Of a DNA stretch of 64,000 nucleotides, positions 15,968 through 18,873 are shown in pieces. How positions within the stretch are numbered: position 1 is the first letter of the stretch; every line of letters begins with the position of its first letter. Origin of the DNA: Ottowia flava (GTDB taxonomy: Bacteria; Pseudomonadota; Gammaproteobacteria; Burkholderiales; Burkholderiaceae_C); contig NZ_VRUA01000004.1 of assembly GCF_008017535.1 (NCBI RefSeq), forward strand, positions 186,001-250,000. Direction: 5' to 3'. Position numbers and translations under genes: made by a program. A model generated the notes under the pieces. It ran no database searches and was not told where the DNA came from. It was given only the letters and a program-made list of their open reading frames with translations.

Positions 15968-17638
15968 TCACCGGTTGTACGCCGTCTCGCCGTGGCTGGA
16001 GATGTCCAGGCCCTGGCGTTCCTGCTCTTCGGTGACGCGCAGGCCGATGGCCATGTCCACCAGCTTGTAGAGCACGACCGAGACGACGCCGGACCATACG
16101 ATGGCGAACAGCACGCTCTTGGTCTGGATCCAGACCTGTGCACCCATGCTGAAGGTGTCGGGCGTCAGGCCGCCCGTGCCGCCCAGGGCGGGGGCGGCGA
16201 ACACGCCGGTGAGGATGGCGCCGATGATGCCGCCCACGCCGTGCACGCCGAACACGTCGAACGCGTCGTCGGCTTTCAGCAGGCGCTTCAGGCCGCCCAC
16301 GCCCCAGATGCACACGAAGCCCGCGATGGCGCCGATGACGATCGCGCCCATCGGCCCGACGAACCCGGCCGCTGGCGTCACCGCCACCAGACCCGCCACC
16401 GCGCCCGAGGCGCCGCCCAGCATCGAGGCCTTGCCCTTGTGCAGCGCCTCGCCCGCCGACCAGGCCAGGGTGGCCGCGGCCGTGGCCAGCACGGTGTTGA
16501 TGAAGGCCAGGCCTGCGGCGCCGTTGGCGGCCCCGGCCGAGCCGGCGTTGAAGCCGAACCAGCCCACCCACAGCAGCGACGCGCCCACCATGGTCAGCGT
16601 CAGGCTGTGCGGGGTGAAGGCCTCACGGCCCCAGCCCAGGCGCTTGCCGACCATGTAGGCGCCCACCAGCCCGGCGATGCCGGCGTTGATGTGCACCACG
16701 GTGCCGCCGGCAAAGTCCAGCGCGCCGTCCTTGGCCAAGAGGCCGCCGCCCCACACGATGTGAGCCATGGGCACGTAGCTGAAGGTGAACCACAGCGCAG
16801 CAAACGCCAGCACGGCGGCGAACTTGATGCGTTCGGCAAAGCTGCCGACGATCAGCGCCACGGTGATGGCGGCGAACGTGCCCTGGAAGGCGACGAAGAC
16901 GTATTCCGGAATGGTGGTCAGCGCGCCGAAGGTCTCGGTGTTCACGCCCTTGAGGAACAGCTTGTCGAAGCCGCCGAAGAAGTTGCCTTCGCCGCTGAAC
17001 GCCAGGCTGTAGCCGTACGCCGCCCACAGGATGCTGATCAGCGAGAACACGACGAACACCTGCATCAGCACGCTCAGCATGTTCTTGCTGCGCGCAAGCC
17101 CCCCGTAGAACAGCGCCAGACCGGGCACGATCATCAGGATGACGAGCAGGGTGGACGTCAGCATCCACGCGGTGTCGCCCGAATCGACCTTGGGTGCGGG
17201 CGCGGCGGCCGAGGCACCGGCCGCGGGGGCCGCCGCGGTGGCAGCGCTCGCCAGCGTGATGGCGACGGCGCGCGCCTCGTCCGGGTTGCCGGTCTGCGCC
17301 GACGCCTCGGGCTTGACCAGCAGCACCGCGTCCGGCGCCACACCGGCGGCGGCCAACGCGTCGCGCACGGCGAACGCGCGCTGCTTGGCCAGCTCGGCGT
17401 TGGCGGCCGCGTCGCCCGTGGTGTCGGTGAAGCCCGACAGTTGCACCGTGGCGCCGGCGTGGGCCTTCACGTAAGCGGCCACGGCCTGGATGGCGGCCTG
17501 GCCCTCGGCGCCCACCTCGGCCTTGCCGGTGTCGAACAGCACCTTGGCGGCCGGGAAGTCGGTCGCAGCGTCCGCCGCGAACGCGGGCGCAGCCAGGAAG
17601 CTCAGCGCCAGCAGAAGAAGGGTGATCAGTCGTTTCAT
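15968..17638 (-). CDS. amt: Ammonium transporter with N-terminal OmpA-like periplasmic domain
   Basis: A 556-residue protein, about 150 residues longer than a plain Amt. Residues 1-21 are a signal peptide. Residues ~28-130 are an OmpA C-terminal-like, peptidoglycan-binding domain: 'AKVLFDTGKAEV', 'VQLSGFTDTTGDAAANAEL' and 'KQRAFAVRDAL', with D72 and R87 where the diaminopimelate-contacting residues are expected. Residues ~131-150 are an Ala/Pro linker. Residues ~154-550 are a complete Amt channel with the twin histidines H316 ('GGTVVHINAG') and H466 ('DVFGVHGVGG') and D308. One uninterrupted frame covers both parts. The Amt N terminus is periplasmic, so the extra domain would face the cell wall. 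It is the last gene of the operon after torF and glnK; GlnK would gate it from the cytoplasm. Confidence 0.93.
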   Translation of the reverse strand: MKRLITLLLLALSFLAAPAFAADAATDFPAAKVLFDTGKAEVGAEGQAAIQAVAAYVKAHAGATVQLSGFTDTTGDAAANAELAKQRAFAVRDALAAAGVAPDAVLLVKPEASAQTGNPDEARAVAITLASAATAAAPAAGASAAAPAPKVDSGDTAWMLTSTLLVILMIVPGLALFYGGLARSKNMLSVLMQVFVVFSLISILWAAYGYSLAFSGEGNFFGGFDKLFLKGVNTETFGALTTIPEYVFVAFQGTFAAITVALIVGSFAERIKFAAVLAFAALWFTFSYVPMAHIVWGGGLLAKDGALDFAGGTVVHINAGIAGLVGAYMVGKRLGWGREAFTPHSLTLTMVGASLLWVGWFGFNAGSAGAANGAAGLAFINTVLATAAATLAWSAGEALHKGKASMLGGASGAVAGLVAVTPAAGFVGPMGAIVIGAIAGFVCIWGVGGLKRLLKADDAFDVFGVHGVGGIIGAILTGVFAAPALGGTGGLTPDTFSMGAQVWIQTKSVLFAIVWSGVVSVVLYKLVDMAIGLRVTEEQERQGLDISSHGETAYNR

Positions 17639-17661: not shown

Positions 17662-18060
<399 letters not shown>

Positions 18061-18825
18061 TTAAAAGTTGTACTTGAGCCCCACCACCAGGCCGGTGCGC
18101 CCGGTGAAGCGCCCGCTGGGCGTGGTGTAGAGCGCCTTGTCGGCGTTGGTGCCCTGCACGCCTGCGCTGGCGACCAGGCCGTTGCCGAAGTCCTTGTTCA
18201 CCGTCACGGCGTAGTCCGTGTACGACGACGCGCTGTTGTGCCGCACCCACTGGCGGCCGACGTGCGGCACCACCGACCAGCCGTCGCCCAAGTCGAACGT
18301 GGCCGACAGGTCGAGGTAGCCGCTGTGCCTGCTGTCGGCAAAGCCGAACAGGTTGGTCAGCGCGTGCGAGTACTTCAGCGTCAGCACGTTCCAGGTCAGC
18401 GCGCCGTAGACCTCGGTGGTGTTGGGGCTGACGCCCAGGCGGTGGCGCGGGTAGTTGTAGTGCAGCAGGCCCACGTCGTAGCCCAGCGGTCCGGCCGTGC
18501 CCTTGTAGCCGCCGTACAGGTCCCATTCCAGCGGCGCATCGCCGCCCGCGTCCTTGATCCAGCGGATCGAGGTCAGCCAGGTGCCGACGTAAAAGCCGCT
18601 GGCGTGACTGTAGTCGGCGCCGGCGCTGATGGCGGGCTTGAGCCGGCTTTGCGAGATGCCGCGGTAGCGGTAGTCGCTGGTCAAGGCGACGTTGAAGCTG
18701 AGCGCATGGGCGGACGCTGGCGCCGCGGCGGTATCGGGCGCGGCTTGCGCGGCTGCGCCGGTGGCCCAGGCGGTCAATGCGGCGGTCAGTGCCACGCGGC
18801 GTGCGCAGCAAGAAATGGGGTTCAT
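18061..18825 (-). CDS. TorF-family putative outer-membrane porin
   Basis: A 254-residue protein with a signal peptide (cleavage after ~'ATGAAAQA'). The body has many alternating beta segments and ends in an aromatic residue ('LVVGLKYNF'), as outer-membrane barrels do. 'LTSDYRYRGISQS' near the mature N terminus and 'GLLHYNYP' are hallmarks of the Gcw_chp/TorF family (TIGR02001), found beside ammonium transporters in proteobacteria. It is the first gene after the sigma-54 promoter. Its start at 18825 has a strong GGAGGA Shine-Dalgarno. It may admit small solutes to the periplasm under nitrogen limitation; that role is inference. Confidence 0.9.
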   Translation of the reverse strand: MNPISCCARRVALTAALTAWATGAAAQAAPDTAAAPASAHALSFNVALTSDYRYRGISQSRLKPAISAGADYSHASGFYVGTWLTSIRWIKDAGGDAPLEWDLYGGYKGTAGPLGYDVGLLHYNYPRHRLGVSPNTTEVYGALTWNVLTLKYSHALTNLFGFADSRHSGYLDLSATFDLGDGWSVVPHVGRQWVRHNSASSYTDYAVTVNKDFGNGLVASAGVQGTNADKALYTTPSGRFTGRTGLVVGLKYNF

Positions 18826-18857: not shown

Positions 18858-18873
18858 AGCAAAGGCCGTGCCA
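18858..18873 (-). promoter_or_regulatory. Sigma-54 (RpoN) promoter of torF-glnK-amt
   Basis: On the minus strand the sequence is TGGCACGGCCTTTGCT, matching the RpoN consensus TGGCACG-N4-TTGCW exactly. Transcription would start near 18846, about 20 bases before the torF start codon, leaving room for the GGAGGA ribosome-binding site. Confidence 0.85.

Follow-up and report, generated by a model that had tools for sequence, protein, structure and literature searches.

An OmpA-like domain at the N terminus of an Amt ammonium channel and its relatives on other inner-membrane proteins of Burkholderiales

Flagellar stators, secretion systems and proteins of the outer membrane are known cases in which an OmpA-like domain provides an anchor to the cell wall, and MotB, one of the described systems closest to the locus analyzed here, has one transmembrane helix. 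Passages in PMC3080404 present MotB as an inner-membrane proton-channel subunit that is anchored to peptidoglycan by its OmpA-like domain. In the PorE complex, diaminopimelate is held by the side chains of Asp576, Asn584 and Arg591 (a section of PMC7192894), and in Acinetobacter baumannii OmpA, calorimetry identified D271 and R286 as critical (a section of PMC6572160). Among the ammonium channels, the first predicted helix of AmtB is a signal peptide that is thought to be cleaved, and the N terminus of Amt proteins is periplasmic and their C terminus cytoplasmic (passages of PMC10433425), in agreement with the topology assumed in a previous prediction for the present locus (hereafter, the original prediction). 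We found no account of an OmpA-Amt fusion among the open-access titles and abstracts listed; such fusions may be recorded in subscription journals or architecture databases. The excerpted part of PMC3246468 has both an ammonium transporter and an OmpA-like protein, treated separately, and the main text of a 2023 review of prokaryotic Amt proteins contains none of the words ‘OmpA', ‘fused' and ‘peptidoglycan'.

Architecture of the fusion protein

The window under study, the whole stretch of 64,000 nucleotides of Ottowia flava DNA that was analyzed, contains a gene combining the two kinds of domain, for which the original prediction gave the coordinates and the uninterrupted frame correctly; the minus strand is now added. 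The gene and the parts of its product are as follows.

15968..17638, minus strand: OmpA-Amt fusion gene, stop codon included; unbroken frame of 556 codons, Pfam PF00691 and PF00909
17576..17638, minus strand: signal peptide, residues 1-21; putative cleavage after A21 (AFA/AD pattern), hydrophobic segment 4-22
17249..17560, minus strand: OmpA-like domain, residues 27-130, from Pfam (34-108), alignments, the structural model and Foldseek
17180..17248, minus strand: Ala/Pro-rich linker, residues 131-153 (23 residues), from the sequence
15971..17179, minus strand: Amt channel, residues 154-556, with an AmtB-like C-terminal tail (PF00909; AmtB alignment to 555)
16691..16693, minus strand: pore histidine H316 (GGTVVHINAG), from the sequence
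16241..16243, minus strand: pore histidine H466 (FGVHGVGG), from the sequence

The two domains that the original prediction claimed both score above the Pfam cut-offs. The search with PF00691 for which it had called yields a significant match for residues 34-108 (51.4 bits, cut-off 27.2, E 1.5e-13, 77 of the 98 profile positions), and PF00909 (Ammonium_transp) covers residues 157-554 over all of its 399 positions (399/399; 409.4 bits, cut-off 23.2), with both of the claimed pore histidines identified as H316 and H466. Among the NCBIfam models, TIGR00836 is exceeded (449.7 bits against a cut-off of 343.3) and the AmtB equivalog NF007947 is not reached (572.6 against 657 bits); by its profile scores, the protein is a channel of the Amt family that is not filed as AmtB itself. 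Solved AmtB aligns with residues 132-555 (phmmer), both pore histidines being matched. The likeness to AmtB (PDB 1xqe, 2nuu and 9cs5) extends over the whole channel and includes the pore histidines, the adjoining glnK and the C-terminal tail, but in AmtB nothing except a signal peptide precedes the channel, whereas the fusion adds a mature periplasmic domain and linker of about 130 residues. In the assembly of 4.1 Mb, no Amt match other than the fusion is present, and the fusion is presumed to transport ammonium and to be controlled by GlnK as other Amt channels are.

For residues 24-135, the AlphaFold model (49 sequences) has a mean pLDDT of 75.6 and a pTM of 0.70, with no residue at 90 or above. 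Foldseek matches this model to OmpA, Pal and OprF domains with TM scores, normalized by query length, of 0.67-0.79 (50 chains listed, mostly OmpA-like), including 3td5, which was crystallized with the stem peptide (0.78 by the same measure); the matches in the PDB also include TolB/Pal and YfiB-YfiR complexes. As modeled, residues 24-135 form an OmpA-like alpha/beta fold. A prediction for the whole chain, which had been proposed along with the original reading, was informative in part: the OmpA portion folds again (pLDDT blocks of 80-93 at residues 31-110 and 61 at 111-120), but the model is poor over the channel (mean pLDDT 52.3, with an alignment of 10 rows), and no arrangement of the domains is drawn from it.

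The domain resembles those of OmpA, Pal, PorE and YiaD in the predicted fold, the Pfam score and an Asp/Asn/Arg triad, but its host is an inner-membrane channel and not, as in those proteins, an outer-membrane barrel or a lipoprotein. MotB likewise is part of an inner-membrane ion-conducting complex with an OmpA-like domain, and by analogy anchoring may work alike in the two, although the domain is C-terminal in MotB and N-terminal in the Amt fusion. Membership in the MotB family itself can be rejected because the fusion protein scores only 16.4-29.1 bits with the MotB and MotD equivalog models, far below their cut-offs of 250-283.

The OmpA subtype and its host proteins

The O. flava assembly holds 13 OmpA domains, six of which are of the Amt-type subtype, a circumstance that the original prediction overlooked. 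The five domains nearest to that of the Amt protein are C-terminal domains of proteins other than Pal or OmpA, namely, CoxB with a cytochrome c domain, CcoP, H+-pyrophosphatase (HppA), a one-helix YidB-like protein and a small one-helix protein. A profile built from 12 such domains separates the subtype sharply, its members scoring at least 96.9 bits versus 74.8 for the next match among the matches listed (own profile, 41 relatives, E 1e-10); the lowest score of a member in the order sample is 89.1 bits (E 1e-22 or better). A KPE motif stands in the subtype in the place of the canonical OmpA loop.

Altogether, 121 copies of the subtype were examined, the first 87 coming from the family, the own genome, named genomes and relatives, and 34 from the order sample, with host classes assigned by motifs and reading by eye and ten representatives confirmed by Pfam. 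The first 87 reside in 18 YidB-like proteins, 18 one-helix proteins, 17 HppA, 15 CcoP, nine Amt, seven CoxB and one reaction-centre cytochrome, with two fragments. The order sample contributes 10 HppA, nine one-helix proteins, six CoxB, three BON-domain-like membrane proteins (the BON domain was checked for L239 alone, with 27.7 bits against the Pfam cut-off of 27), two reaction-centre cytochromes and one each of CcoP, a YidB-like protein, an RND membrane-fusion protein and an unclear host. Another 11 copies fall outside the 121; three of these are without a locus, and the host of L286 is unclassified. By its sequence, this is a distinct OmpA subtype of Burkholderiales that has become joined to a wide range of inner-membrane proteins, including several with a part in energy transduction.

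Some of the host classes deserve a separate description. HppA with a C-terminal OmpA-like domain accounts for 27 of the 121 copies (L045, L201, L212, L213, L049 and others), as do the small one-helix proteins that end in the subtype domain (27 of 121; L044, L157, L241, L246 and others), several of which have an acidic N terminus and basic residues past the helix. A YidB-like domain followed by one helix and the subtype domain was recognized by motif in 19 of the 121 (L041, L165, L180 and others; L041 was Pfam-checked). Pfam also confirmed PF02276 in L253, and identified L254 (G205) as an RND-type membrane-fusion protein (HlyD_D23) with the subtype domain at its C terminus.

In the order sample, the subtype was detected in 26 of the 200 genomes and 17 of the 109 genera, the own genome included (E 1e-22 or better); at the same threshold, these 200 genomes yielded no further Amt copies. 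Each of the nine genomes with an Amt fusion has two or more subtype copies besides that of Amt, versus any copy at all in 26 of the 200 genomes of the order, an association that partly reflects kinship because at least 21 of 25 genomes of the genus carry the subtype anyway.

All 112 non-Amt copies end within 20 residues of the C terminus of the host, and an N-terminal domain occurs only in the nine Amt copies of the 121. The C-terminal parts of CoxB, CcoP and PufC are periplasmic, and both ends of HppA face the periplasm. Since the N terminus is the periplasmic end of Amt, the domain would lie outside the inner membrane in all the hosts of known topology. Another 46 of the 121 copies belong to one-helix and YidB-like hosts, in which the charges flanking the helix, as read by eye, settle no orientation, and these hosts are not counted as support.

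Two cases outside the Amt family have precedents in the literature or in structures. In a portion of PMC2716516, a cytochrome oxidase of B. pseudomallei with an OmpA domain is listed and then set aside, so that the Burkholderia CoxB with an OmpA domain is already in print as a listing, with no role proposed in that portion and with a host other than Amt. The subtype profile also detects an OmpA-like stretch in the PsaB subunit of photosystem I (7f4v chain aB, residues 755-831 of 872, E 5.9e-8), which shares with the proteins analyzed here the membership in an energy-converting membrane complex and the location of the stretch near one end but differs in the host protein. We take 7f4v to be the Gloeobacter violaceus photosystem I linked to an eLife paper (10.7554/eLife.73990), in the main text of which neither ‘peptidoglycan' nor ‘cell wall' appears.

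Distribution, operon and history of the fusion

The OmpA-Amt fusion is rare. In the family, where a protein match was obtained in 149 of 150 genomes and the fusion was called when the listed alignment reached residue 5 or earlier, it occurs in at least four of the 150 (G000, G146, G079 and G058), a lower bound given that about 12 genomes with weak best matches are unplaced and unread loci were judged by the aligned query range. We read 32 family loci, a non-random set picked for high score, N-terminal reach or a long frame; on reading, the OmpA domain was present in the same four genomes, and the other 28 loci are without it and consist of a signal peptide, mostly a low-complexity Ala/Pro stretch, and then the channel. 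Judging from the loci read, the OmpA domain lies between the signal peptide and a linker that is common to many plain relatives. Within the genus, 19 of the 29 genomes have an Amt match (E 1e-60 or better), with five of these fused (G000, G146, G163, G153 and G160) and 14 without the domain. A scan of named genomes, in which relatives were found by two short peptide patterns and the best 80 of 195 were kept, added a Sphaerotilus MAG (L048) and the Pseudomonadota MAG KLAP50 (L047); in KLAP50, as in the window, the genes are arranged torF-glnK-amt. The total is nine genomes. Plasmid-borne fusions were sought as well and rejected: 104 of the 72,556 plasmid records matched, none with a single place covering 80% of the protein. 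The linker is 18-30 residues long in eight of the nine fusions, the eight in which it was measured.

The fusion gene is the last of three that run in the same direction, with glnK directly upstream.

18061..18825, minus strand: TorF-family putative porin, the first gene of the operon (PF09694 / TIGR02001; start chosen by eye, GGAGG-ATG)
17662..18000, minus strand: glnK, PII regulator (PF00543, E 1.8e-33; NCBIfam P-II family regulator, 185.5 bits, cut-off 181)
18859..18873, minus strand: sigma-54-type promoter site TGGCACGGCCTTTGC (TGGCAC-N5-TTGC), an exact match 33 nt before the torF start

Sigma-54-type sites of this kind are a mark of RpoN/NtrC control. The exact pattern matches once in the window, and at least once in 34 of 100 shuffled windows (mean 0.36); because shuffled sequences contain exact matches this often, the weight of the site rests on its position. 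Of 14 related loci tried, the torF start was located in 12, and nine of these 12 have a sigma-54-type site with at most two mismatches (0-2) at a distance of 27-43 nt before torF; the other three of the 12 are without a good site (best 3-4 mismatches). Given the site before torF and its similar placement in related operons, torF-glnK-amt is probably turned on by nitrogen limitation. Around the operon, no sigma-70 promoters were found (0 vs 0.2 in shuffles), and the two terminators detected there are no excess over the 2.2 in shuffles.

This neighborhood is independent of the fusion. The glnK gene adjoins amt in 47 of 49 loci, and a TorF motif is near amt in 14 of the 49 (flanks are often too short to show it); eight of these 14 have no OmpA domain. 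The suggestion in the original prediction that the fusion positions the channel beside the TorF porin is therefore unsupported, and we set it aside, since amt genes without the OmpA domain likewise have TorF and glnK ahead of them.

On the tree of the channels (L049 and L156, which are not Amt, removed, and L230-L233 missed by the motif), fused and plain proteins are interspersed, the fused state requiring five changes, at least four of which are forced by well-supported branches. With this number of changes (four to five) and with the domain absent from 14 of 19 genomes in the genus and 28 of 32 family loci, the OmpA domain is dispensable for Amt function. It is nevertheless maintained by purifying selection: comparing fused genes in six pairs gives dN/dS values of 0.08-0.37 for the OmpA part and 0.04-0.16 for the channel, the OmpA part being the faster-evolving one in all six. 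The Pfam scores, the nine genomes with the fusion and these dN/dS values rule out a chance match or a frame accident; an assembly artefact is ruled out by the same dN/dS range of the OmpA part and by recurrence in other assemblies, two of which (G146 and G079) are single-contig.

Trees of the domains, from which duplicate loci and two fragments (L203 and L209) were left out, rest on about 100 columns and are weak, but in both, the nine Amt domains form one group (support 96/84 in the first tree and 98/78 in the second). The channel and domain trees would both fit a single ancient fusion in Amt that was lost several times, or an exchange of the N-terminal part between amt genes; separate gains of a closely related domain by Amt proteins are also possible. 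The HppA domains show a different pattern. The 14 from the genus of the window nest among the CcoP domains, with some of the inner forks weak, and apparently were copied from CcoP; the HppA domains of other lineages lie elsewhere in the tree. For the 17 HppA domains that the tree includes, a single origin is rejected with p-AU 0.00087, in a test that was run after the first domain tree was seen and that involves long branches. Judging by these trees, an HppA-type host probably acquired the subtype domain more than once, and such repeated uptake by the same kind of host argues for a use of the domain.

A proposed peptidoglycan tether and its alternatives

The residues relevant for ligand binding are the following.

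17423..17425, minus strand: D72, predicted diaminopimelate-binding Asp, equivalent by spacing to PorE Asp576 (a section of PMC7192894)
17399..17401, minus strand: N80, predicted diaminopimelate-binding Asn, equivalent by spacing to PorE Asn584 (same section)
17378..17380, minus strand: R87, predicted diaminopimelate-binding Arg, equivalent by spacing to PorE Arg591 (same section)
17267-17269, minus strand: A124 of the fusion protein, in place of the second Arg of an RR motif

D72 and R87 are located where the original prediction put them. The spacing of D72, N80 and R87 (D, +8, +15) is exactly that of the PorE triad, and the triad includes the pair equivalent to the critical residues of A. baumannii OmpA as given in the cited section of PMC6572160. 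Every one of the 121 subtype domains has the triad unchanged; for comparison, the mean pairwise identity among the first 87 copies is 52%, with 11 of the 102 columns invariant. In the canonical RR motif, with which the last strand begins, the window protein keeps R123, and A124 replaces the second Arg. At that second position, 114 of the 121 domains have Arg and one has Lys; Ala occurs only in the six Amt domains on the window side, and the other three Amt domains retain the Arg. A124 is a change specific to one lineage and situated close to the binding groove. In H. pylori MotB, an Arg near this place, Arg226, is among five residues conserved throughout the family (passages of PMC3080404) and may correspond either to R123 or to the site of A124; in the latter case, binding could be weaker in just this lineage.

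We favor the interpretation of the Amt-fused domain as a peptidoglycan tether, which on the sequence and model evidence is the best reading and a fairly probable one. The mature N terminus of an AmtB-like channel would be a folded OmpA-like domain carried on a short flexible linker in the periplasm, where the domain would grip diaminopimelate in peptidoglycan. AmtB is a trimer; each channel trimer would have up to three wall anchors and would be pinned beneath the cell wall. At about 3.5 angstrom per residue, the linkers reach at most some 60-105 angstrom, so that the short linker may be just long enough to reach the wall, perhaps near full stretch. Anchoring might fix the position of the channel, bring it into the company of other anchored complexes or make it resistant to crowding. 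We infer peptidoglycan binding, restricted diffusion or positioning and a benefit to the cell. Of the original interpretation, the tether thus stands as the best-supported part (through the fold, the triad, the periplasmic N terminus and the presence of the subtype on other inner-membrane proteins), in contrast to the placement next to TorF.

The same observations can be read in other ways. The domain could be exported and folded but, in this lineage of Amt, no longer bind the wall to any useful extent, so as to be a tolerated relic of an older fusion, which would account for the Ala that is confined, among the 121, to the six Amt domains on the window side, for the interspersed fused and plain channels with their five changes and for the faster evolution of the domain compared with the channel. 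The confinement of A124 to this lineage slightly raises the standing of this explanation, which we nonetheless consider unlikely: dN/dS is well below 1 in six of six pairs, the triad is intact, and the fusion persists across several lineages. A somewhat more improbable scenario is that of a protein-protein module that clusters Amt trimers or docks to periplasmic or membrane partners, proteins with the same domain included, without significant binding to the wall. OmpA-fold domains can bind proteins too, as the TolB/Pal and YfiB-YfiR complexes among the structural matches illustrate, and six subtype copies coexist in the genome on different membrane proteins; such a module, however, leaves unexplained a diaminopimelate triad that is conserved without exception across unrelated hosts. 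Finally, the AxA-like sites in the Ala/Pro linker might suggest that periplasmic cleavage frees the domain, which then acts on its own or disappears, but a similar Ala/Pro stretch is present in most of the plain relatives read and hence is no mark of a cleavage site; we regard separation of the domain from the channel as very improbable.

In the proteins described here, the fold of the known wall anchors is joined to a nutrient channel and, across the order, to core respiratory and proton-pumping proteins, apparently having been acquired on separate occasions. A broader proposition, which we put forward tentatively and with more doubt than confidence, is that a single OmpA subtype able to grip the wall serves Burkholderiales as a general anchor for the inner-membrane machinery of energy conversion and nutrient uptake, comprising cytochrome oxidases of the CoxB and cbb3 types, H+-pyrophosphatase, the photosynthetic reaction-centre cytochrome and the sole ammonium channel. 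If the domain binds, some bacteria fix bioenergetic complexes to the wall, and the subtype would offer a natural handle on the question why inner-membrane complexes cluster; if the general anchor is real, the bioenergetic membrane of these bacteria would be wall-pinned and spatially ordered rather than a free two-dimensional fluid.
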